Origin: Euryarchaeota archaeon TMED99
Lineage (GTDB): Archaea; Thermoplasmatota; Poseidoniia; Poseidoniales; Poseidoniaceae
Assembly: GCA_002170315.2 (NCBI GenBank)
Contig: NHFA02000044.1
Coordinates: 1 to 36,492 of the forward strand
Direction of reading: 5' to 3'
Length of the DNA stretch: 36,492 bases
Shown: piece by piece, positions 12,832-33,297 of the stretch
How positions within the stretch are numbered: position 1 is the first letter of the stretch
How the letters are laid out: each line of letters starts with the position of its first letter
Made by a program: the position numbers and the translations under genes
The notes under the pieces: model-generated
Databases searched by the model: none
Told to the model about the DNA's origin: nothing
Seen by the model: only the letters and a program-made list of their open reading frames with translations

Positions 12832-14556
12832 ATGTCGAACATAACCACAGTCGAAGCATTTGGTGACGGTTTTATCAGTGCACTTTGCCCTGAATTAATG
12901 CTGTTTGCTGGTCTCTTGTTGTTGATTCTCGTGCCAAATTTGGGACGAGGCACATTCCGTATTCCAGGCACTCAGATTCGTGTTCCTTGGCTTTTAGGAG
13001 GCACACGTTTCAAAATTACAAGTGATCCAAGACTACCTGCTTGGATTGCCTCTCTCACGCTTGGCGGGGCTTTCTTGAATGTAGTTTACACCTTTAGTCA
13101 AGGTCTTGAGCGTGTTGTTATCGTTTCTGAGTCTGGCAAAGAATTACTCCTTGTGAATGGATTCAGTCGAGTTTTCGAGATGATTTTCTTCGGAGCTTTA
13201 GCCTTAGCAGCCTTTTCAAGCATGAATCGACTTCAAGTCAAGGGAATCGGAGCTCGTGTCTCTGAACATGAATTGTATAACAATCGCAGACAAGCAGATT
13301 TCTACATTCTCATGGTGACATGCGCACTTGGTATGTCTGTTGTTGCACTCGCTCAAGACCTGTTTGTTTTATTCATTGGTCTTGAATTAGCATCCTTCTC
13401 GACCTATGTTCTTGTTGCTTTCCTCAAAGAAAGTAAAGTCGGCGTTGAATCTGGAATGAAGTATTTCATCGTAGGTTCGGTCGCATCAGGAGTCGGTCTA
13501 TACGGGCTTTCAATGCTCTATCTATGGGCGGGTTCACTTCAATTCAGCGTACTCTCGGTTGCCTTCGCCGAATCTGGAACCACTGCTTTACCGCTCATCG
13601 GAATCGGTTTTGTTTTGGTTGGTTTTGGATTCAAAGTAAGTGCAGCACCGTTCCACTTTGCCGCTCCTGATGCTTATGCAGGCGCTATTAGTCCAGTTGC
13701 GGGTGTTCTTGCAACAGCCAGTAAAGCAATGGGAATGCTTGGATTGGTTCGAATGCTGCTCATTGTGGCAGCACCTGAATCCAGCGATGGAAGTGCAGTT
13801 TGGCTTGCTTGCTTAGGTGCAATGGCAGCCATCACAATGACGTGGGGTAACCTTGCTGCTCTCGGAAGCGATAATCCAAAGCGAATGCTCGCTTATTCTT
13901 CAGTTGCTCACGCAGGATACATGTTGGCCGCATTGACTGCAGTTGGTGCATGGAACTGGGATGCAACGGTTTCAGGAGATGCTGGTGCGGCTGCAGTAGC
14001 CGTAATGACAGCACTTCTTTTCCATCTTGTTGTTCTCGTTGCTTTCAAACTCGGAGCCTTCCTCGTTCTCTCTGTTCTTGAGTCTGAAGGTGGAGCCTCT
14101 CGACTTTCGTCACTCGGTGGCTTAGCAAAGCGAGAACCACTGCTTGCAGTAGCCATGTTCATCTTCATGATCTCTCTTGCTGGAGTGCCTCCTATGGCTG
14201 GTTTCCTCTCGAAATTATTGGTCATCATGGGTATCGTCCGTATCGCTGTTGGCGATATGGGTGCTGAAATTGCTGATGGTGGCGTTTTCGTCCTGGCAGA
14301 TATGCACTGGGTTTGGTGGCTTGCTTTCCTCATGGTCATCAATTCAGCCATCTCGGTCTTCTATTATCTACGCGTCGTTGTCGTGATGTTCTTTGATGAA
14401 CCCGAAGAAGGACGTGAAGGACCGCTTCCAAGTGGTTGGCAAGTTCGACTAGCAATACTTGCATGTGTGCTCACTACGGTCTTTGTTGGTCTCGCAGGCG
14501 ACGCATTGATTCGCATCTGTGAGATGGCTGCGCAAAGTCTCAACTACAATTGGTAA
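12832..14556 (+). CDS. nuoN: Complex I subunit NuoN
   Basis: Proximal proton-pumping antiporter-like subunit (574 aa from ATG 12832; family about 480). Conserved elements: helix-5 LFVLFIGLELASFSTYVLVA (Glu), GFKVSAAPFHFAAPDAYAGA (Lys and the PFHFWAPDAY-type loop, here FHFAAPDAY) and NPKRMLAYSSVAHAGYM. GGAGGTG lies 6 bases before ATG 12832, so the in-frame ATG earlier at 12817 region inside nuoM is not preferred. Two soluble loops (around residues 36-70 and 375-390) make it longer than bacterial NuoN. Last gene of the operon, followed by a hairpin and T-run. NuoE, F and G are absent, so no NADH or F420 oxidising module is encoded here. Confidence 0.95.
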   Translation: MSNITTVEAFGDGFISALCPELMLFAGLLLLILVPNLGRGTFRIPGTQIRVPWLLGGTRFKITSDPRLPAWIASLTLGGAFLNVVYTFSQGLERVVIVSESGKELLLVNGFSRVFEMIFFGALALAAFSSMNRLQVKGIGARVSEHELYNNRRQADFYILMVTCALGMSVVALAQDLFVLFIGLELASFSTYVLVAFLKESKVGVESGMKYFIVGSVASGVGLYGLSMLYLWAGSLQFSVLSVAFAESGTTALPLIGIGFVLVGFGFKVSAAPFHFAAPDAYAGAISPVAGVLATASKAMGMLGLVRMLLIVAAPESSDGSAVWLACLGAMAAITMTWGNLAALGSDNPKRMLAYSSVAHAGYMLAALTAVGAWNWDATVSGDAGAAAVAVMTALLFHLVVLVAFKLGAFLVLSVLESEGGASRLSSLGGLAKREPLLAVAMFIFMISLAGVPPMAGFLSKLLVIMGIVRIAVGDMGAEIADGGVFVLADMHWVWWLAFLMVINSAISVFYYLRVVVVMFFDEPEEGREGPLPSGWQVRLAILACVLTTVFVGLAGDALIRICEMAAQSLNYNW

Positions 14557-14608
14557 AGCGAGCAATCTCGCTTAAACGCCCTATTGCGCCACTTTAATGG
14601 CATTTTTT
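14556..14608 (+). terminator. Probable end-of-operon terminator after nuoN
   Basis: A perfect 7-bp hairpin (AAGCGAG-CAAT-CTCGCTT, 14556-14573) starts at the nuoN stop codon, and a T6 run (CATTTTTTAG, 14603-14608) follows 30 bases later. Archaeal termination depends mainly on T-runs, so the T6 may be the working part. The hairpin's role is uncertain. Confidence 0.5.
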
Positions 14609-14660
14609 AGGGTGCTGTATTCAAGAAGGGTCGACTGTTGGAGTGATTAGGTGAGGCTGA

Positions 14661-15326
14661 TTGGGTCGACGTTATGAAGAAAAAGTGGACATAGAAGAGC
14701 TTGCTCGTCTTGAGAATCCAGAAGATTCTTCTGGCGGCAAAATCAGAGTCAAAATGCCGAACCGAAAAATCAACGAAATGTTCGCCTTTGCAGAACAAAT
14801 TCTTGGTGGTCGTCGAGTGACTGTTCTGTGTGAAGATGGTGAGACTCGCATGGCACGTATCCCTGGTAAAATGCGTCGTCGTCAATGGGTCCGTGATGGT
14901 GACCTGATCATTGTATGGCCTTGGGATTTTCAAGATTCGAAAGCAGATGTCAAACATCGATATTCCAAAACACAAGCAATGTATCTTTCCCGCAAGGGTG
15001 TCTTGCCAAAAGAACTTGATTTCTTTGGCATGAATACCGCTACTGATGACACCGATGATGAGTTTTCAGATACTTTCGGAGAGGTCGATGAGCCTGAACC
15101 TGAAGCAGAGCTTGCTGAAGACGCTGACGACGAAGATGTTGACGATTTGTTTGGTTCAGATGATGATGACGATGATGATGACTTGTTTGGTTCTGAAGCT
15201 GAAGCAGAAGCAGAGGAAGAAGCTGAAGAAGAAACCCCTCATGTTCCTGTTGAAGAATACCCTGATGAAGAACAGGGTGATGACAGCGATGATGATGACG
15301 AAGACCTCGAATCATTGTTCGGTTGA
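14661..15326 (+). CDS. eif1A: Translation initiation factor aIF1A with long acidic C-terminal tail
   Basis: OB-fold initiation factor that binds the A site of the small ribosomal subunit (221 aa). The core is clear: VLCEDGETRMARIPGKMRRR (55-74), WVRDGDLIIVWPWDFQDSKA (76-95) and RYSKTQAMYLSRKGVLP, matching C.DG..R...I.GK.R...W...GD...V..W..Q..KADI..RY. Archaeal aIF1A is usually about 100-115 aa. Here an acidic tail of about 95 residues (126-221) is added. It contains repeated acidic-LFG motifs: SDTFG (136-140), DDLFG (161-165), DDLFG (173-177) and the very end LESLFG (216-221). An in-frame TGA (14658-14660) directly precedes the TTG at 14661, so that TTG is the only start for the full core. 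GTGAGG is just upstream. Rio1 follows closely. Confidence 0.93.
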   Translation: MGRRYEEKVDIEELARLENPEDSSGGKIRVKMPNRKINEMFAFAEQILGGRRVTVLCEDGETRMARIPGKMRRRQWVRDGDLIIVWPWDFQDSKADVKHRYSKTQAMYLSRKGVLPKELDFFGMNTATDDTDDEFSDTFGEVDEPEPEAELAEDADDEDVDDLFGSDDDDDDDDLFGSEAEAEAEEEAEEETPHVPVEEYPDEEQGDDSDDDDEDLESLFG

Positions 15327-18942: not shown

Positions 18943-19137
18943 GAACTCATGACGGGTGCGGTTATCCTTGAATGCTCCCCTTCATCTCTATCTTTTTGTT
19001 GACTATTTGTGAGAAAAAACCCGTTTCGATTCCCGAGAAGATGTTGCTTTGGAATTGGGAAAAACATCGTCTTGAGGCCAATAATTCATGACATGCAGAG
19101 ATGGGTTCAAGTGCTTTACAAGGTGTCGATTACCTAC

Positions 19138-21942
19138 ATGGCGAGCGCGTGGAAGCCGACAATTGTGATTCTTCTCCTCTGTATCGCGATGGTACCGATG
19201 ACAAATTCCGCTGAGCAGAGTGGTTCAATTCAAGCCTCAGAGAGTACGGTTGCTCTTCAACCTTCAAACCCTGAAGCTGGTGGTTCAGTCACCATCAACC
19301 TTCAGTTATACAACAGCGGTACGTATGCAACCGATGTCGAATATGCTTTCTATCGTAACGGAATTGGGCCAAGCAAATTACTTGAATCTTCAACTGTAGA
19401 CATCGATACTGAATCTACTGCTGAAGTCTCGACGGTTTGGCAGGGCCTCGTTGAAGGCGACCATGAAGTCCACATTACCTTTGAATATCCGCGTAATTCT
19501 GGTAATCAAGCAGAATTTTATGTTGAGTTTACCGTTACTGGTTTACCAAATTTGAAGGTCACAGAGACCCAACTCTCTCCTTCATCAGGTATTCATTCAG
19601 GCGATACAGTGAATCTTTCTTCCTTGGTTAGAAACTTAGGGAGCGAGCCAGCAGATGCGAGTGTACTCCACATTGACCTTCCAGGTGCCAATGATTTGGA
19701 TATCGCTACTCCGCCCATTGCCGCTGGCTCTTCTCAATGGGTCAATACCACGTTTACTGCACCTTCAAGTGGTTCGCATTCATTGATGATCACGCCCGAT
19801 TATCAAAATGCAGTTCATGAATCTTCAGAGATGAATAAAATGGTGGAAGTTCCTTTTGTCGTCGATACTCGAATGGATGTATTCCATGTTGGAGAATTAG
19901 ATGTTGCCATCGAAGAAGGTGCCCTTCAAGGACCGTGGGTGGTCTCCGGAAGGATTGCTCAAACCAACGGTTCAGGAACGTCAGCAGTTCCCCTTCAGTT
20001 GCAGATAGCAAATCCATCGGGTGGAGCGATTTCGATTGCGCCCTTCACCGTTAGCCTCACAGGAACAGGGTATGCAGAAGCCCAATGGAGTCAAGTTCTT
20101 ACCGCTTCGCAATTGGATGCATTGCCTGTAGGAATACATACCATTTCAGCACATATTGATCCTTTTGGAACGGCAGCTTTCACTCAAGAATCGACCTCGA
20201 ATGACGTCATCTCAGCCCCCTTATCAAAATACGCAGTTCCAGACGTTTTTGTTGATTTGAATGCTATTGCTTCGTCACCTTCTGTGAACTCTGGTGATTC
20301 GGTTGAATGGAGTGTAAGTATGATTAATACTGGGGATATTGAAGTCACAGGTCGCCTACACTACACGTGGGAGGATATTGAATCAACATCTCCAATTATC
20401 TATCTCGGTGCAGGTGATGATTTTACTTGGACCGTTGAATTAACGACAGCAATTGGTGCTCATGATGCGACTTTTGACGCTCAATGGGTTGCTTCTGCAA
20501 ACAGTTGGGATGCAGACCTAACCAACAGTGTAGCCTCTGGCATGGTTTCAGTCGAAGCAGAATTACGCTTGTCTTGGGCTCTTTCCACCCTTGAAGTGAC
20601 GGGAGCAGATGGCTCTCCAGTTGTTTTGCCTATGACGCAGGGCGAGTCCTATACTCTCAAAGTTGATTTGACCAGTGTTGAAACTGGAGATTTGACGTAT
20701 GATTGCGTGAATGGAGCTGGCGATATTCTTGCAACAATGGATGCTGAAGTTCTTAATCTTGGAGATAAAGTAACGCTTGAATGTCAATTCAATGCATCAG
20801 CACCGTCGACTGTGGTTCTTCTTATTCCTTCAGATTCGACCATTTCGAATACATTCACACGAACGTTTAGTACGGTAATGAGTGAAGAAGATCTTGATGA
20901 TTTGAAAACAAACTCCGAGTTGGGAACCTTCACGCTTATCGGAATAGGTTCAGCCATATTAATCGCAATCTTAGCAATTTCAATTTATCTTACAAGAGAA
21001 TCAGAAGAAGAAGTTGAACGCGACATCTTTGAGTACTGTCCTGCTTGTGATGGTGAACTTGAAGGTGACGAAGACCGTTGTCCACATTGTTCTTTCAATT
21101 TGAAGAAAGCACGAAACCAATTCCACGAGTGTGAAGAATGCGGTGAATCAATCCCTGATTTGCTTGATAATTGCGTTTATTGTGGTGCACCACAAGATGT
21201 ATCCTCATATTTCGAACAACGTCAACGTAAGGAAAAAGTCGAGAAAGAGGTCGTTGCTCTTCCTGAAGAAATCGATGAAGATGAGATTGTTACCGGAACT
21301 GAGAACTTCGCTGAAGCGGTTCAAGAATTTGGTTATGATGAAGACCAACTGGAAGATGAATGGGATGAGAACATCGAGAGTGCCGAGGCTGAAGTCGAAG
21401 CAGCATATGATCGCAGAAATGCTGATGAATTGTTGCGAGAAGACATGACTGAAGAAGAACTTGAAGCCTATCAAAACACGGTCACTACGACCCTCAAGAG
21501 CATGAAGGACCTCGGTAAGGAATCGAATGATATCGACGCCATTCTCGCATCGAAAGGAGAAATTATCGCTCACAAAGACGATGGTAAAGACCTCTCTGCC
21601 AGCGATGCTGATATCCGTGGAAGATTGTTTGAAATTACAGGCGAAGAAGGAATTATGCCTGGCGATAAGGTCAATGTTGGTATGCAACTCACCGATTCTG
21701 CATTTGCTGGAAACGAAGTCTCTGAGGCGACTTCGGACTTCTCGGTAAAAGACGATGACAAACCTGTTGCCATTATTGACGAATTATCACCTGGTAAATC
21801 GAAACCCGCCCGTCGTCGGAGTGCTCGACGTAAATCTGCAGAACCTGAAGCGAAAGCAGAAGTGGCAGAATGCGGTGCTTGCGGTGCAGAGATCGCAGTT
21901 GATGCAACAGAATGTGGAACCTGCGGCGCGAAGTTTGAATGA
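19138..21942 (+). CDS. CARDB receptor-like membrane protein with three cytoplasmic zinc ribbons
   Basis: A 934-aa protein from ATG 19138, chosen because MASAWKPTIVILLLCIAMVP gives a clean signal peptide ending TNSAEQ. The frame is open up to 19009, so longer forms cannot be excluded. Outside: several CARDB/NEW3-like beta modules, for example LYNSGTYATDVEY, SLVRNLGSEPADA and VSMINTGDIEVTG. One membrane helix follows (about residues 600-620, TLIGIGSAILIAILAISIYL). Inside: three zinc ribbons with identical C-x2-C-x10-C-x2-C spacing: CPACDGELEGDEDRCPHC (634-651), CEECGESIPDLLDNCVYC (665-682) and, at the very end, CGACGAEIAVDATECGTC (912-929). Between them lie about 230 acidic, helical residues, then a basic patch (KPARRRSARRKSAEP). 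Outside-in architecture suggests a sensor or scaffold. No kinase or nuclease motif. Function unknown. Confidence 0.82.
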   Translation: MASAWKPTIVILLLCIAMVPMTNSAEQSGSIQASESTVALQPSNPEAGGSVTINLQLYNSGTYATDVEYAFYRNGIGPSKLLESSTVDIDTESTAEVSTVWQGLVEGDHEVHITFEYPRNSGNQAEFYVEFTVTGLPNLKVTETQLSPSSGIHSGDTVNLSSLVRNLGSEPADASVLHIDLPGANDLDIATPPIAAGSSQWVNTTFTAPSSGSHSLMITPDYQNAVHESSEMNKMVEVPFVVDTRMDVFHVGELDVAIEEGALQGPWVVSGRIAQTNGSGTSAVPLQLQIANPSGGAISIAPFTVSLTGTGYAEAQWSQVLTASQLDALPVGIHTISAHIDPFGTAAFTQESTSNDVISAPLSKYAVPDVFVDLNAIASSPSVNSGDSVEWSVSMINTGDIEVTGRLHYTWEDIESTSPIIYLGAGDDFTWTVELTTAIGAHDATFDAQWVASANSWDADLTNSVASGMVSVEAELRLSWALSTLEVTGADGSPVVLPMTQGESYTLKVDLTSVETGDLTYDCVNGAGDILATMDAEVLNLGDKVTLECQFNASAPSTVVLLIPSDSTISNTFTRTFSTVMSEEDLDDLKTNSELGTFTLIGIGSAILIAILAISIYLTRESEEEVERDIFEYCPACDGELEGDEDRCPHCSFNLKKARNQFHECEECGESIPDLLDNCVYCGAPQDVSSYFEQRQRKEKVEKEVVALPEEIDEDEIVTGTENFAEAVQEFGYDEDQLEDEWDENIESAEAEVEAAYDRRNADELLREDMTEEELEAYQNTVTTTLKSMKDLGKESNDIDAILASKGEIIAHKDDGKDLSASDADIRGRLFEITGEEGIMPGDKVNVGMQLTDSAFAGNEVSEATSDFSVKDDDKPVAIIDELSPGKSKPARRRSARRKSAEPEAKAEVAECGACGAEIAVDATECGTCGAKFE

Positions 21943-22641: not shown

Positions 22642-23820
22642 TCAAGCAAGCGAGTCATTGCAAGCATAAAGCCGTGAACAGTTTCTGCACTTTCCTGGGC
22701 GCTCATGGTTTCGAACTGCTCCACCTTGGACCATGAGACGCTGAATTTCTTGTACAGCATCCCTCAGTTCTTGCTTTGCAAAGTCATTCCAGGGGATTTG
22801 ATGAAGATTCTTTTCTCCATAACGTAGAACACCATACGGCGAACTTTTGTTGGTATTTTTTTCAACCAGATGGAGATAAGCGAGTAATTGCATTCGATGT
22901 GAAGGGTGAGGATTGACAGGTATTTTTCCGGTCTTTTGTTCGACCGGAATGAACTCTCCATCGACAATGACAATTTGGTCAGGCTTACCTCTTAGACCAA
23001 GTTCTCGGTCGACCAAGAGGTCTGACGTAGCATCTCCATCAGAATAAGCCACTTCATCTTCAGTTTCAAAGTCGATATCATTTTTCATTGACTCGAGCGC
23101 ATTTTCAGATAACAACATTCGTTGAAGCTGCCATGAAGCCGCCAATGTCCATGCCATTGCAGTAATGAAAAGAATGAATGTTGCTTGACTTCGATCGTCT
23201 GCTCCAGCCAGTGCGATTGCATGTAATCCCAAAACAATCGAACCAAAGAGTAGACTTGCTTCAACCCGTCCTGCTTCAAACCAGCCTCCAATGAAGCCTT
23301 TGGGCTCCCAAAAGTGGCTGAAATCATTATTACGTGATAAGAATTTAGATTTTTGGCGCGGGATTGTTTCTCGTAAACCTATCCAAGAACGCCAAGGGAT
23401 AGAGATGGCTATGAAGCCTACAATGAGCATTGCTACGCCCCACATGGCGAGGTATCGTGCCATTTGCAATGGTGTTGTCACCTCATCGATGAAATTGAAG
23501 GCGATAGCGTCAACGGTTAAGGCGATGATCACTGAAAACCACCATGTCCAAATTGTTACTGAACGTCGCATCTGCGTTTGAATGAATTGAAAATCTTTCA
23601 TTTTCTCATGTATTTGCGAGTGTCTTTTGATTCCGGCGACGATTGCCTCGCCTTGGCCAGAATTGCCTTGGCGAGATAATGACCAAGATAAAGGACAATA
23701 TTCATGACGTTCTAAATCGCTTGCACTGACTGGTAGAGCAACTCCCTGTTCGTCACGCCATGTTCCGTCTTCTGAAAGAGTAGCGTTCAGTGGGGCATTT
23801 TCACTCGAATCCTGACCCAT
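22642..23820 (-). CDS. Cas4-like Fe-S PD-(D/E)xK nuclease interrupted by membrane helices
   Basis: A 392-aa protein from ATG 23820 (GGTGG five bases upstream; GTG 23829 is in frame). The outer parts follow the Cas4/RecB-nuclease plan: EYCPLSWSL with Cys42, GIKRHSQIHE (His67, His71), GLRGKPDQIVIVDGEFIPVE with Asp281 and Glu294, then QKTGKI (Lys296), HRMQLLAYLHLVE (Gln311, Tyr315), GVLRYGE, and CRNCSRLYAC (Cys378, 381, 387). The Cys spacing 1-4-10 with one distant N-terminal Cys is the Cas4 [4Fe-4S] pattern. Between the His motif and the D..ExK core, about 150-170 residues are inserted, with four hydrophobic helices (about 88-110, 122-143, 188-208, 214-234). No cas1/cas2, other cas gene or CRISPR array is in the window. 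The gene is convergent with a lipoprotein and divergent from rpsB. A membrane-bound nuclease role is inferred. Confidence 0.8.
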   Translation of the reverse strand: MGQDSSENAPLNATLSEDGTWRDEQGVALPVSASDLERHEYCPLSWSLSRQGNSGQGEAIVAGIKRHSQIHEKMKDFQFIQTQMRRSVTIWTWWFSVIIALTVDAIAFNFIDEVTTPLQMARYLAMWGVAMLIVGFIAISIPWRSWIGLRETIPRQKSKFLSRNNDFSHFWEPKGFIGGWFEAGRVEASLLFGSIVLGLHAIALAGADDRSQATFILFITAMAWTLAASWQLQRMLLSENALESMKNDIDFETEDEVAYSDGDATSDLLVDRELGLRGKPDQIVIVDGEFIPVEQKTGKIPVNPHPSHRMQLLAYLHLVEKNTNKSSPYGVLRYGEKNLHQIPWNDFAKQELRDAVQEIQRLMVQGGAVRNHERPGKCRNCSRLYACNDSLA

Positions 23821-23937
23821 GTTTCCCACCCCAGTAACCTCAACAGAGGCGCTTCAGGTTTTGAGTTCTTTCATGGCTAGCCCGCTCAAATCACCATGAG
23901 CATCAAGAAAAAATCATTCCGCCTCTCTACGAAGCGG

Positions 23938-24758: not shown

Positions 24759-25589
24759 TTGTTCAATCGTTTTGTTTTTTATCCCATGCTTGACCGAAAA
24801 ATAGCAAGCAGTGATTTGGAACTTTTTGTTCACGACCAAGAGCGCGGCCTTATGCGAGTTTTAAGTTACGGCGAACGTCTTGATTGGAGTTTAAACTCTG
24901 GCAAGGCATGTGACGCTGTACCTTGGCTTGACCGTATTCAACCTTTGATTGATGAAGAGAGTATTGTTTTTGATGTTGGGGCGAATATGGGTGTTGTTAG
25001 CCACTGGTTTGCTGAACGAAGCCGCCATGTTTACGCTTTCGAACCGCATCCGGAAAATGTGTCCACTCTTCAATCTCAAATGAAATTGAGAAACAGCCCA
25101 AACATCACACTTCACCAATATGCGCTCGGCAGAGAAGAAACCCAAATGCAATTGCATGTCAAAGGTTTTCACGGGCACCATTCACTCGGCGATGTCGATA
25201 ACAGCCCAACCGTCGATAAGATTCTGGTCGATGTTCGAACCATGGATACGGTCTTCGAGGAACTCAATCTCAATCGTATTCATTTTCTCAAAATTGATGT
25301 TGAAGGATTTGAATCAGATGTTCTCTCTGGAGCATCCTTGCTTTTGAAAGAGAAAAAAATTGATTACATTCTGTTTGAATTACAAGAAACCCTTCTTCAA
25401 TCCATTCAACGAACCTCTCAAGAGGTGTTCGATATACTGTTTGAATCAGGATATCAAATTATAGATTTAAACGGCCGGATGATGAAGCAAGAATCGCCTC
25501 AACAAATCCCAAATGGAGATTATCTGGCTTGTATCAATGGTGCAGAGGCAGCGAAGAGGCTTGCAAACTCGCCATTTGAACTGATTTGA
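24759..25589 (+). CDS. FkbM family SAM-dependent methyltransferase
   Basis: Methyltransferase of the FkbM family (276 aa from TTG 24759), typically O-methylating glycans or small molecules at the cell envelope. Motifs: SAM-binding VFDVGANMGVVSHWFAERS, acidic VYAFEPHPENVSTLQ, and the family signature HFLKIDVEGFESDVLSGASL near the C-terminal half, then FELQETLL. Start uncertain. The frame stays open upstream to 24675 and carries protein-like sequence (RAFLYALRTPGRLFNRF). An SD-like AAGGGGGA precedes an in-frame CTG at 24687 by 6 bases. TTG 24759 has a TATA-like CTTTATGC 26 bases upstream and could be leaderless. It lies between rpsB and a convergent dus gene. Substrate unknown; the glycosyltransferases nearby suggest surface glycans. 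Confidence 0.85.
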   Translation: MFNRFVFYPMLDRKIASSDLELFVHDQERGLMRVLSYGERLDWSLNSGKACDAVPWLDRIQPLIDEESIVFDVGANMGVVSHWFAERSRHVYAFEPHPENVSTLQSQMKLRNSPNITLHQYALGREETQMQLHVKGFHGHHSLGDVDNSPTVDKILVDVRTMDTVFEELNLNRIHFLKIDVEGFESDVLSGASLLLKEKKIDYILFELQETLLQSIQRTSQEVFDILFESGYQIIDLNGRMMKQESPQQIPNGDYLACINGAEAAKRLANSPFELI

Positions 25590-25595
25590 GCCGTA

Positions 25596-26630
25596 TCATT
25601 CGGATGTATTTGCTGAAAGATAGTCAGAAATGCCGTTGGCAAAGTCTTCTGGAGTCGGAGCACCGTGCATCATATGTCGAATCTTCTTTGCACCTGGTAG
25701 GCCTTTGGTGAAGGCTACTGCATGACGTTGCATCCAGCGCGGTTGAAGACCCATTGTGAGGTGAGAATATTCGATGTATTTGTCCCAGCACCATTTTCGA
25801 GTCGCAAAAGCGCGACCTATTTCTGAACGTTGATACCAATCTTCACCCATCTCTTTTATCCAAGGTAAATCCTCTTCATCCATCCATCCTAATCCTACTT
25901 TGATTTCTCCAAATATTGCTGGACGACCAATTGCGCCACGACCGATCATAAGGCCGGCAGCACCTGTAGTTTCCAAGCATAGTTGAGCGCTTTTTGTATC
26001 GACAACATCTCCATTCGCAATTACAGGCACCTCTACACCGTCAACGATACGGCGTATGGAATTCCAATCTGCTTCTCCTGAATACCGCTGGCGAAGAGTG
26101 CGACCATGAACACAGAGCCGGGAAGTGCCGATTTTTTCAAGCTCTTGGCAGATGTCAAGAGCATTATTGTCACCTTGACCAGTACCCAATCGCATTTTTG
26201 CAGTCACCGGAATATCGACCCGTTGAATAATTCCATCAACCATCGACACGAGATTGTCCGGTTCGCCCATTAAAGCAGCCCCTGCACAGATTTTGGTAAC
26301 TTTTGGAGCAGGACAACCAAAATTCAAATCGATAATATCCGCACTCGGAGCCAACATTTCAGCAGCAGTCGCCATATCTCCCGCATCCCCTCCAAAGATT
26401 TGGGGTATGAAGGGGATTTCTGTAGCATGAGATTCCATCTTTCTCCAAGACATAGCGGCTTCACGCGTGAGTGCGGTGCTGTTGGTAAATTCAGTGATGG
26501 TGACATCGGCACCGCAATCTTTGGCAAGCAATCGAAATGGCAGGTCAGAAACTCCAGCCATTGGGGCGAGAAAGAGGGGTCGAGACTCACCTTCCCACGC
26601 CCCGGGTTTTGCCCCGATATGTTCGCTCAT
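25596..26630 (-). CDS. dus: tRNA-dihydrouridine synthase
   Basis: Flavin enzyme that reduces uridine to dihydrouridine in tRNA (344 aa from ATG 26630, GAGGA 7 bases upstream). It is a TIM barrel plus helical C-terminal domain. FMN-site and catalytic motifs: LFLAPMAGVSDLPFRLLAKD (19-38), PQIFG, DLNFGCPAPKV (catalytic Cys106), VTAKMRLG (Lys145), CVHGRTLRQRYSG (His175), VPVIANGDVVD and GLMIGRGAIGRPAIF. The C-terminal 90 residues (RKWCWDKYIEYSHLTMGL and then KIRHMM) match the helical tRNA-binding part. Which uridine is modified cannot be told. It ends convergently only 6 bases from the FkbM gene and follows the winged-helix gene on the same strand. Confidence 0.95.
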   Translation of the reverse strand: MSEHIGAKPGAWEGESRPLFLAPMAGVSDLPFRLLAKDCGADVTITEFTNSTALTREAAMSWRKMESHATEIPFIPQIFGGDAGDMATAAEMLAPSADIIDLNFGCPAPKVTKICAGAALMGEPDNLVSMVDGIIQRVDIPVTAKMRLGTGQGDNNALDICQELEKIGTSRLCVHGRTLRQRYSGEADWNSIRRIVDGVEVPVIANGDVVDTKSAQLCLETTGAAGLMIGRGAIGRPAIFGEIKVGLGWMDEEDLPWIKEMGEDWYQRSEIGRAFATRKWCWDKYIEYSHLTMGLQPRWMQRHAVAFTKGLPGAKKIRHMMHGAPTPEDFANGISDYLSANTSE

Positions 26631-30411: not shown

Positions 30412-31161
30412 ATGGCCGATGAGACATCACCTCAAAGTATGGATTCAATCAAATGGTTTCATTCTATTCCGCTCAATGACGGTGTAGTTACTCCAGGTTT
30501 GGATGCCTCGATGGCGAAACTCGAACAGATATGTCTTCCAAAAGACCTAACTGGAAAAACGGTTCTTGACATTGGTTCTTGGGATGGTTTTTTCTCATTC
30601 CAAGCAGAAAAAGCAGGTGCTAAGAGAGTTCTAGCAACCGATCACTTTTGTTGGAGTGGCCCAGGATGGGGCACGAAAGACGGTTTTAACTTCGCTCACA
30701 AAGCGTTGAACTCAAAGGTCGAATCACTCGACATCGATGCAATGGACGTGTCTCCTGACAATGTGGGTGAGTTTGATGTCGTCATGTTCCTCGGTGTTTT
30801 GTATCATTTACAAGACCCAATGGCTGGTCTTCGTGTTGCAGCAAGTGTCTGCAAAGAATTGCTCATTATCGAAACTGCTGTTGACGATTTGCACCGCTGG
30901 AAGCCTTCGATGGTGTATTATCCTGGTGATTCCTTCAACAGTGATGATACCAATTACTGGGCTCCAAACGTAGGTGCAATGAAAGGTATGCTCAAGGATT
31001 TGGGCTTCTCAAGAGTTGAAGTCGTCTATCCAAAGAACCCGTGGATTCGTTATTCACTCCCCGTTCGATTGTTCTCTTCAATCAAAGGAATGTTCACTGG
31101 GCGTGGTCCTTTCCGACAAACGATTAATCAGGGCCGAATGTCTTTCCATGCGTACCGATGA
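30412..31161 (+). CDS. CmoB-like SAM-dependent methyltransferase
   Basis: A 249-aa Rossmann methyltransferase. SAM loop VLDIGSWDGFFSFQAEKAGA (51-70), then DHFCWSGPGWGTKDGF, FDVVMFLGVLYHLQDPMAGL (121-140). The last is characteristic of the CmoB/DUF1698 group (V.YH...P...L). W15FHSIPLNDGVVTPG resembles the CmoB N-terminal W...i.L..g..T.G. True CmoB makes carboxymethoxyuridine in bacterial tRNA, but in archaea such homologues are usually found near sugar genes, so a glycan or small-molecule substrate is more likely here. Start is uncertain: ATG 30412 (no SD, weak TATA-like element about 26 bases upstream) or ATG 30379. The CDS lies 38 bases after the GT4 gene. Confidence 0.82.
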   Translation: MADETSPQSMDSIKWFHSIPLNDGVVTPGLDASMAKLEQICLPKDLTGKTVLDIGSWDGFFSFQAEKAGAKRVLATDHFCWSGPGWGTKDGFNFAHKALNSKVESLDIDAMDVSPDNVGEFDVVMFLGVLYHLQDPMAGLRVAASVCKELLIIETAVDDLHRWKPSMVYYPGDSFNSDDTNYWAPNVGAMKGMLKDLGFSRVEVVYPKNPWIRYSLPVRLFSSIKGMFTGRGPFRQTINQGRMSFHAYR

Positions 31162-31212
31162 GCGAGAACTTCACTCCGCAGTGTTCTTGAGTCGAGTTTT
31201 GTTGGACGGTTT

Positions 31213-33297
31213 ATGCAACCTATTCAACGCGTAGCCATAGTCGGTGCAGGAAACATGGGCTCTGGTATTGCTCAAAAAACCGCTCAAGAAGAATTTGATG
31301 TTCAAATGGTTGACCGAGAACAACAATGGGTGGATCGTGGCCAAGGTATTATTCGAGATTTCCTTTCTGAAGCAGTCGAGCGACGCATCTTTTCACCTGC
31401 ACAAGTCGAGGCGATTCAAGGGCGAATTACCGGTGTTGTTGGCGTTGAAAATACGGCAACAGATACCGATTTAGTCATCGAAGCGGTGTTTGAAGATTTT
31501 GACATAAAAACTGCAGTTTTCAACACACTTGACAAGGCATGCGGACCTGATACAATTCTCGCATCAAACACGTCTTCGCTCTCGGTCAATGCACTGGCAG
31601 AAGCGACTGGTCGAGCTGACCGTTTTGTTGGTTTGCATTTCTTTTATCATCCGGCGAAAAACAGACTTGTCGAAGTAATTCCAGCGAAGTCTTCCAGTCC
31701 AGAAACGGTTGAAAAGGTCGTTCAATACTGCAAAATGCTCGGGAAAGTCGTCATCGTTTGTGCGGACCGGCCTGGTTTTGTCGTCAATCGGTTCTTCGTA
31801 CCTTGGTTGAATGAGGCTTGCCTTCTTTTGGAAGAAGGCGTTGCTACGGCTGCTCAAATTGATGCAGCGGCTTGCAAAGCATTCCGTATCGGACTTGGAC
31901 CGTTTGGTTTGATGAATCTTACCGGCCCACCGATTGCTCTTCATTCGACCGATTATTTGTCTGAACAGTTGCATACTCCTCGCTACAATGGAGCACAAAA
32001 CCTCCGAGATTTGATCGATGCCAATGAACAATGGAGCATTGAAGGTGAAGAATCCTATTCTGATGAGCAATACGTTACCATTTCGGAACGCTTGTATGGT
32101 GTTGTCTTTGGTGTCGCTGCTCAAATTGTCGATGAAGGTGTTTGTTCGATGGAAGATGTCGATCGAGGGGCGAAAGTTGGACTTCGATGGGCTCGTGGTC
32201 CTTTTGAATTGATGAATAAAGTGGGCGTTGAAGCCTCGTGTCAAATGGCCCAATCCTATGCTGATTTGGCTGCAGAATCAGACCCTTCTCGTGCATGGAA
32301 TGTTCCTGATTTCTTTATCGAACAAGGGAATGAAGATTGGTCTTTCTCAACTGTTGATACATCCATTGAAGATGGCATCGCTACGATTACCATCAACCGT
32401 CCTGAAGCAATGAATGCGCTTAATGAAACAGTGATTTCTCAACTTGGTGTTGCGTTGGATAAAGTCAACGCCAATGATTCCGTTCACACGATTGTGTTAG
32501 ACGGTGCAGGGAAGGCCTTTGTTGCAGGTGCTGATGTCAAATTCTTTGTCGATAAAATACGTGCAGATGCAATACCGGATATTGTTGAATTTACAGCAAA
32601 CGGGCACATCGTGCTCGACAAACTTGAATCGTCAAAGAAAACCACTGTTGCTTTGACGACCGGACTTGCACTTGGTGGTGGTCTTGAATTGGCACTGGCG
32701 TGTGATTATCGCGTTGGAACTCGCAGAACACAATTCCGATTCCCTGAAACTTCGATTGGTATTTACCCAGGACTCGGTGGCTCTCAACGTCCAGCTCGAA
32801 TAAGTGGTATTCCCGCAGCACGGTGGGCAGTTTTGGCTGGCAATTTCATGGATGCCTCCACTGCTGCCGATCTTGGATTACTGACTCATCTGGTCGAAGT
32901 CTCTGGTGTCAATACCTGTGTTTCGCAACTTGCAAAGAGCGGTAAACCCGACAATAAATATCCGGGTCAACCAGCACGAGCAGACAGTGCAGTCGCCACT
33001 TTTGCACGTTCCTTCTTCGCAGATGGGAATATGTCGGATTTGATGGCAGGAAAGTGTCCGGAAGGCTTTGATGCTGAAGACAGGAATGTCGGTCGTCAAC
33101 TCAAATCTCTTTCTCGAACGGCACCTCATGCCTTGAAAATGGCCAGTGGCTTGATTGATGAAAGTGCTCATACAGACCTTTCACAAGGACTGCAATTAGA
33201 GCTTGATGGTCTCACTGAGATATTTTCAACTGCAGATTCGCTCGAAGGTTTGTCGGCACTGATTGAAGGTCGAAGACCAACGTATACCAATGCGTGA
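31213..33297 (+). CDS. 3-hydroxyacyl-CoA dehydrogenase / enoyl-CoA hydratase fusion
   Basis: Bifunctional beta-oxidation enzyme (694 aa): hydration of enoyl-CoA, then NAD-dependent oxidation of the 3-hydroxyacyl-CoA. Residues 1-290 or so form the dehydrogenase: GAGNMGSG (Gly11, 13, 16), ILASNTSSLSVNALAE, GLHFFYHPAKNRLVEVIP (His142, Glu154) and CADRPGFVVNRFFVPWLNEA. A second C-terminal dehydrogenase-like helical repeat (VDRGAKVGLRWARGPFELMN) precedes the hydratase. The hydratase (from about 390) has AFVAGADVKFF (oxyanion hole), LGGGLELALACDYRV with Glu492 and FPETSIGIYPGLGGSQRPA with Glu512, the catalytic Glu pair 20 residues apart as in crotonases. Dehydrogenase-first order is the form seen in archaea; bacterial FadB/FadJ have hydratase first. 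Suggests fatty-acid use. No SD is clear before ATG 31213. Convergent, its stop abutting the next gene's. Confidence 0.95.
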   Translation: MQPIQRVAIVGAGNMGSGIAQKTAQEEFDVQMVDREQQWVDRGQGIIRDFLSEAVERRIFSPAQVEAIQGRITGVVGVENTATDTDLVIEAVFEDFDIKTAVFNTLDKACGPDTILASNTSSLSVNALAEATGRADRFVGLHFFYHPAKNRLVEVIPAKSSSPETVEKVVQYCKMLGKVVIVCADRPGFVVNRFFVPWLNEACLLLEEGVATAAQIDAAACKAFRIGLGPFGLMNLTGPPIALHSTDYLSEQLHTPRYNGAQNLRDLIDANEQWSIEGEESYSDEQYVTISERLYGVVFGVAAQIVDEGVCSMEDVDRGAKVGLRWARGPFELMNKVGVEASCQMAQSYADLAAESDPSRAWNVPDFFIEQGNEDWSFSTVDTSIEDGIATITINRPEAMNALNETVISQLGVALDKVNANDSVHTIVLDGAGKAFVAGADVKFFVDKIRADAIPDIVEFTANGHIVLDKLESSKKTTVALTTGLALGGGLELALACDYRVGTRRTQFRFPETSIGIYPGLGGSQRPARISGIPAARWAVLAGNFMDASTAADLGLLTHLVEVSGVNTCVSQLAKSGKPDNKYPGQPARADSAVATFARSFFADGNMSDLMAGKCPEGFDAEDRNVGRQLKSLSRTAPHALKMASGLIDESAHTDLSQGLQLELDGLTEIFSTADSLEGLSALIEGRRPTYTNA

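Follow-up and report, generated by a model that had tools for sequence, protein, structure and literature searches.

A membrane-interrupted Cas4-family nuclease gene of Poseidoniales and its split two-gene relatives in archaea and on bacterial plasmids

Contig NHFA02000044.1 of Euryarchaeota archaeon TMED99 (order Poseidoniales), analyzed here over its whole length of 36,492 nucleotides and called the window below, carries a gene whose 395-amino-acid product has the motifs of a Cas4-family nuclease and, between them, four hydrophobic helices. The established role of Cas4 is that of a soluble helper in CRISPR systems, and its stand-alone form, solo-Cas4, is an orphan of unknown role. We consider it probable that the product of the window gene is a Cas4-family nuclease of the solo type, independent of CRISPR and itself an integral membrane protein, tethered to the membrane and facing the cytoplasm. 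The family to which it belongs has so far been unrecognized and is inherited mostly vertically; intact motifs, hydrophobic helices, a duplicated membrane hairpin, a split into two genes at the hairpin turn, and a broad distribution can be read from the sequences themselves. To our knowledge this membrane-built and split architecture is new. Within the open-licence literature, no relevant paper on membrane, transmembrane, or split Cas4 was found, and the word "transmembrane" is absent from the Cas4 phylogenomics paper. A phylum-wide family of this kind gives the orphan solo-Cas4 a cellular place and a testable job.

Family assignment and conserved motifs

The Pfam model Cas_Cas4 (PF01930) matches the window protein with an E value of 4.9e-10 (40.2 bits against a curated cutoff of 22.7), and PDDEXK_1, also above its curated cutoff, with 7e-10, the two matches spanning residues 262 to 390. 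The cas4 equivalog model TIGR00372 scored 55.5 bits, under its cutoff of 65, which was passed by two of the four other family members tried. Whole-protein phmmer against the PDB gave no solid match and profile searches were required: the family profile matched the Cas4 structures 4ic1 (1.3e-7), 4r5q (7.1e-7), and 8d3l (1.2e-6), as a preliminary description of this gene had anticipated, and a profile of the C-terminal half in its split form matched 8d3l at 1.5e-13. The top PDB matches in Foldseek were the Cas4 chains of Cas4-Cas1-Cas2 complexes, with probabilities of 0.89 to 0.97 but E values of 0.4 and 0.09. By its profiles, the window gene is a member of the Cas4 family, an assignment that is firmer from these searches than from AlphaFold or Foldseek.

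Across 38 diverse homologs, C45, D284, K299, Q314, Y318, C381, C384, and C390 are identical, position 297 is E or D, and the motif I histidine H70 is kept in 36. The active-site motifs of Cas4 are therefore all in place, as are its four cysteines, one N-terminal and three C-terminal, which are also found in the two halves of the split forms. Soluble Cas4 proteins are metal-dependent single-stranded DNA exonucleases that require the residues of motifs II and III and of QhxxY (PMC3466216, PMC4176176). Since the active-site residues are all kept, nuclease activity of the family is likely. The "paired His" of the preliminary description holds for H70 family-wide, while H74 is a trait of Poseidoniales. 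Its Cas4-type reading of the remaining motifs stands, and the start it had placed at 23820 is an ATG alternative within the longer open reading frame (ORF). The features of the gene are as follows (TM, transmembrane).

22642..23829, minus strand: membrane-interrupted Cas4-family nuclease gene (predicted), 395 aa, GTG start; alternative ATG at 23820
23566..23733, minus strand: N-terminal nuclease half, residues 33-88, SASDLERxxYCPxSW ... GxxxH; kept in all homologs, its own gene in split forms
23695..23697, minus strand: C45, predicted N-terminal iron-sulfur (Fe-S) cysteine; invariant, 38/38
23620..23622, minus strand: H70, His of motif I and putative metal ligand; 36/38 homologs
23485..23559, minus strand: TM helix 1, residues ~91-115; hydropathy, 36 representatives
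23392..23460, minus strand: TM helix 2, residues ~124-146; hydropathy; the turn before it is the gene cut point in other lineages
23200..23262, minus strand: TM helix 3, residues ~190-210; opens the second hairpin, homologous to the first
23122..23190, minus strand: TM helix 4, residues ~214-236; hydropathy and hairpin homology
22978..22980, minus strand: D284, motif II (GxPD); invariant, 38/38
22933..22941, minus strand: E297-x-K299, motif III; E or D, plus K, 38/38
22876..22890, minus strand: Q314-xxx-Y318 motif; invariant, 38/38
22660..22689, minus strand: C381-x2-C384-x5-C390, predicted Fe-S triplet; invariant, 38/38

The insertion after the His motif, which the preliminary description had also pointed out, is seen in the spacing from His to Asp: 214 residues in the window protein against 29 to 37 in solved soluble Cas4 (His94/Asp123 in Pcal_0546 and His62/Asp99 in SSO0001; PMC4176176). 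Hydropathy of the inserted part peaks at residues 96-114, 126-144, 191-209, and 217-235. That a soluble Cas4 was joined to an unrelated membrane protein by chance fusion or as an annotation artefact found no supporting point. The same architecture, with invariant motifs flanking the insert, recurs in many family-level groups, and this conservation refutes the artefact, whose probability we regard as negligible.

Split form

In three families of the phylum (f16, f27, and f6), profile matches land on two short ORFs. The N-half, of about 85 to 120 residues, contains the Cys and His motifs and one terminal helix; the C-half, of about 170 to 180 residues, opens with one helix, followed by GxPD, ExK, Q-Y, and the three Cys. 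The N-half stops 0 to 7 residues past its helix, that is, at the hairpin turn, in all 23 split loci, consistent with both halves being held at the same membrane. Split forms comprise 20 archaeal loci as well as pairs on Bacillus and planctomycete plasmids, and the bacterial ones cluster with f27 in the tree (support 93/84). The term "split" is used here descriptively, for fission or fusion alike. The cut falls at the same place in three lineages. We take this as an argument for the reality of the helices, for the hairpin turn as a tolerant site, and for an active site and an Fe-S cluster that would be shared between two membrane-anchored pieces. Sequencing frameshifts are no explanation, because some of the split-gene genomes are single contigs.

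At about two-thirds of the archaeal split loci, a possible C-half start codon (ATG, GTG, TTG, CTG, or ATA) has its own last two bases in common with the N-half stop, and at five f16 loci a GAGG/GGGG-TG element lies seven bases before the C-half start, which together suggests that translation of the two halves is coupled. At several loci (L185, L186, L189, and L191 of f16; L196, L200, and L202 to L204) the C-half frame has no ATG, GTG, or TTG at its natural start. What overlaps the stop of the upstream frame there is an ATA or a CTG, with the ribosome-binding-like element in f16, and nonstandard starts or frameshifting are possible. The two halves overlap in a clean ATGA on the two planctomycete plasmids and lie four bases apart on the Bacillus subtilis plasmids, which are 63 to 65 kb in size. 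Existing annotation of the bacterial pairs reads "hypothetical protein" plus "Dna2/Cas4" or "PD-(D/E)XK nuclease". The two halves from Bacillus subtilis have the protein accessions WP_144625283.1 and WP_144625286.1. Their positions are as follows.

14300-15038, Bacillus subtilis plasmid NZ_OX419581.1: split pair (L213/L216)
30615-31396, Paludisphaera plasmid: split pair (L217)
25321-26093, pSINAC03: split pair (L218)

The split form would be a simple experimental system, in which two small proteins, expected to be inactive singly, would make one nuclease and one Fe-S cluster only when their helices meet. With the pair on Bacillus subtilis plasmids, this is testable in a tractable host instead of in uncultured archaea.

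Repeated hairpin and topology

Most members of the family have four helices, but two were counted in L150, L151, L154, L167, and L178 and eight in L155, L157, and L173; in L146, although it is a complete member, no more than three exceed the threshold applied. When hairpin 1 was aligned with hairpin 2 across 28 four-helix members, hhalign scores were 64 to 68 (E about 1e-14), against 12.8 ± 3.5 (maximum 24.9) for 100 alignments with block-permuted columns and 12.2 for the reversed control. The insert can thus be described as a tandem array of one two-helix hairpin in one, two, or four copies, and the membrane part appears to have expanded through tandem duplication of this unit, by which both nuclease halves would stay on the same side. 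On the tree, whose root rests on three soluble Cas4 proteins, three changes are needed to account for the eight-helix form and two for the two-helix form. Such a series of 2, 4, and 8 helices is an unusual repeat expansion of a membrane domain within an enzyme fold. Hydropathy, the hairpin duplication, and the split at the turn all point to an integral membrane protein, in line with the membrane-embedded nuclease first proposed. In the 652-residue frame of the eight-helix member L155, the C-terminal 70 residues or so look TRAM-like by eye.

With an even number of helices, both nuclease halves emerge on the same side. Across the phylum the loops hold 20.5 Lys plus Arg per 100 residues on the nuclease side and 8.3 on the opposite side, with this bias in 30 of 36 proteins. 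In L158 (genus g9), the first hairpin turn, which joins helix 1 to helix 2, has about 100 extra residues (residues ~115 to 205), rich in D, G, and N and resembling an extracellular domain, with no Pfam match; this stretch is predicted to lie outside. From helix parity and charge bias, and with the L158 stretch pointing the same way, we infer that the nuclease halves are cytoplasmic. Action at the outer side of the envelope, as first envisaged, does not agree with this orientation.

Charged or polar residues inside the membrane helices, D107 (23509-23511), E190 (23260-23262), and H203 (23221-23223), are invariant in Poseidoniales and absent from the rest of the phylum; an additional function involving an ion or a metal may be what they indicate. 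These residues bear on an alternative in which the hairpins perceive a membrane event, such as an ion leak or viral entry, and switch the nuclease in the manner of abortive-infection effectors. The conservation of the hairpins and their repetition make them look like more than mere anchors, and the three residues would suit a sensor. Their limitation to Poseidoniales argues against it, as does the vertical, near-universal, single-copy inheritance of the gene in family f1, which is unlike that of defence islands. PADLOC, moreover, matched Cas4 models best, with the PD-(D/E)XK model DruK weaker (1e-7); it gave no better non-Cas4 defence model, and the window neighbors are housekeeping or surface genes rather than parts of a known anti-phage system. 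We regard the sensor as improbable.

Distribution and inheritance

Far from being an isolated oddity, the gene has a homolog in 179 of 293 Poseidoniales genomes, and a profile built from these homologs detects relatives in 242 of the 390 genomes searched in the phylum. The survey covers the genomes of this one archaeal phylum, bacterial occurrence being known from plasmids. Within the order, nearly all genomes of f1 and four genera of f2 carry it, and the remaining f2 genera, which have smaller genomes, do not. The split-form profile matches 95 of 120 genomes in the class of genome G463, a few of which may be ordinary Cas4-like proteins. The 38 diverse members are 25 to 67% identical to the window protein, and those outside the order mostly 25 to 33%. 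The gene is usually present in one copy per genome and syntenic in the order; genome G022 has, on contig C6 at about 85.7 to 86.9 kb (L159), an extra, frame-broken copy beside the intact one. A viral origin was rejected, as IMG/VR scans and phage records gave no homolog.

The window genome has a single match to the Cas_Cas4 model and no cas1, which accords with the earlier remark that no cas gene is nearby (arrays were not searched for). Neither was cas1 found in 29 other Poseidoniales genomes (0/30 in all), and ComEC (PF03772) was found in none of 51 genomes. CRISPR adaptation and ComEC uptake therefore fail as explanations: a CRISPR adaptation component or a ComEC-linked DNA-uptake nuclease has Cas4 homology in its favor, but also has the score under the cas4 equivalog cutoff against it, and we consider it highly improbable. 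Of the DNA-uptake role once suggested for this gene, the ComEC type is unlikely, whereas the protein may act at the inner membrane face on DNA that comes in.

Genomic neighborhood

The window gene stands alone between a convergent lipoprotein-like gene and the divergent rpsB, so no meaningful operon exists in the window. In all 14 Poseidoniales loci whose neighborhoods were surveyed, the nuclease gene has the lipoprotein-like gene next to it in tail-to-tail orientation; being convergent, the two are not cotranscribed. The significance once given to this placement beside lipoprotein and surface genes is not supported, since the gene stands alone and neighbors differ outside the order. A single partner gene for the whole phylum was likewise rejected, as neighbors vary from family to family. 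In one clade (L145, L147, L149, L161, L168, and L171) a gene of the TPD family (PF14811), which is related to human CDIN1, lies directly upstream on the same strand at -11 to 61 bp. In L179 and L180 the gene directly upstream on the same strand, at 11 to 24 bp, encodes a large, probably secreted protein with PLD, lamin tail, and PKD domains. Housekeeping genes flank the nuclease gene in other families. Near the split pair are a DNA methyltransferase and a MobF relaxase on the planctomycete plasmids and helicase, thermonuclease, and toprim genes on the Bacillus plasmids. A further conserved neighbor in the order, at 19009-21942 on the plus strand of the window, encodes a 977-residue protein that contains CARDB repeats and a probable TM helix followed by several zinc ribbons.

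Proposed function

In the mechanism we propose, TM helices in even number (two hairpins here) would interrupt a RecB-like fold and separate its His motif from its Asp/Glu-Lys core. Both halves would emerge on the cytoplasmic side and form one active site, and they would share one Fe-S cluster, with one Cys from the N-half and three from the C-half. On the cytoplasmic face of the membrane the nuclease would then bind the ends of DNA and, like soluble Cas4, cut or resect them. The lack of cas1 and ComEC, the plasmid neighbors, and the Synechococcus precedent described below favor trimming of incoming DNA, and we tentatively propose that the enzyme clears or trims DNA at the membrane, its likeliest substrate being plasmid or viral DNA that has just entered the cell. 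More speculatively, the family may be a membrane-integral group of Cas4 nucleases that is ancient in one archaeal phylum and occurs on bacterial plasmids as well, with an active site and Fe-S cluster built across two anchored halves (two subunits in several lineages), and may form a general checkpoint wherever DNA crosses the cytoplasmic membrane.

As a job, repairing membrane-associated DNA that belongs to the cell itself ranks behind acting on incoming DNA, and we regard it as doubtful. It also underlies the strongest alternative to the proposal as a whole, a housekeeping repair nuclease that resects the ends of its own chromosome and is anchored where the nucleoid meets the membrane. The core-like distribution, single copy, and kept synteny of the gene agree with this, a resection role has been proposed for Cas4 exonucleases (PMC3466216), and one clade has the gene downstream of the TPD-family gene on the same strand. 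Furthermore, NurA, the usual archaeal resection nuclease, was found in none of 20 Poseidoniales genomes, where the HerA-NurA pair thus seems to be missing. However, there are related genera without NurA and without the membrane Cas4 gene alike, so the latter is not the sole replacement of NurA, and as a NurA replacement it is a weak candidate. No repair helicase or Rad50/Mre11 was seen as a neighbor, and repair leaves the membrane anchoring unexplained. We therefore judge a housekeeping repair nuclease unlikely.

Several observations weigh against a membrane-tethered, cytoplasm-facing Cas4-family nuclease. The AlphaFold models, built from shallow alignments, are of middling confidence (pLDDT 66 for the whole protein and 62 for the core), and packing of the halves is not shown by them. 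The positive-inside bias is weak within Poseidoniales alone (14.8 against 12.6, in 19 of 25 proteins). The absence of the gene from several f2 genera indicates that it is dispensable there, and the neighborhoods give no pointer to one pathway.

Comparison with known systems

A Cas4-like nuclease of Synechococcus elongatus restricts transfer or maintenance of RSF1010 and is a precedent for CRISPR-independent action against incoming plasmids (PMC10653904). The likeness is one of function; membrane helices, a feature of the window family, are not reported for it. AddB/Dna2-type Fe-S RecB nucleases (PF12705) have the superfamily and the Cys arrangement in common with the window family (PMC3466216), with a weak fold match to Dna2, but the window family has no helicase and has membrane helices. 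The Cas4 of Cas4-Cas1-Cas2 adaptation complexes (CAS-Cas4) gives the best structural and profile matches, whereas cas1 is absent from the Poseidoniales genomes tried and three ordinary Cas4 proteins compared have no membrane insert. The closest relative in organization is solo-Cas4 (PF01930/DUF83, COG1468; SSO0001 and Pcal_0546), which shares with the window family H...D...ExK...QhxxY, the four Cys with C-x2-C-x5-C, the stand-alone gene, and mostly vertical inheritance (PMC5704561, PMC4176176). In contrast to solo-Cas4, the window family has about 180 extra residues with hairpins between the His and Asp motifs, which would make it integral to the membrane, and is sometimes encoded by two genes.
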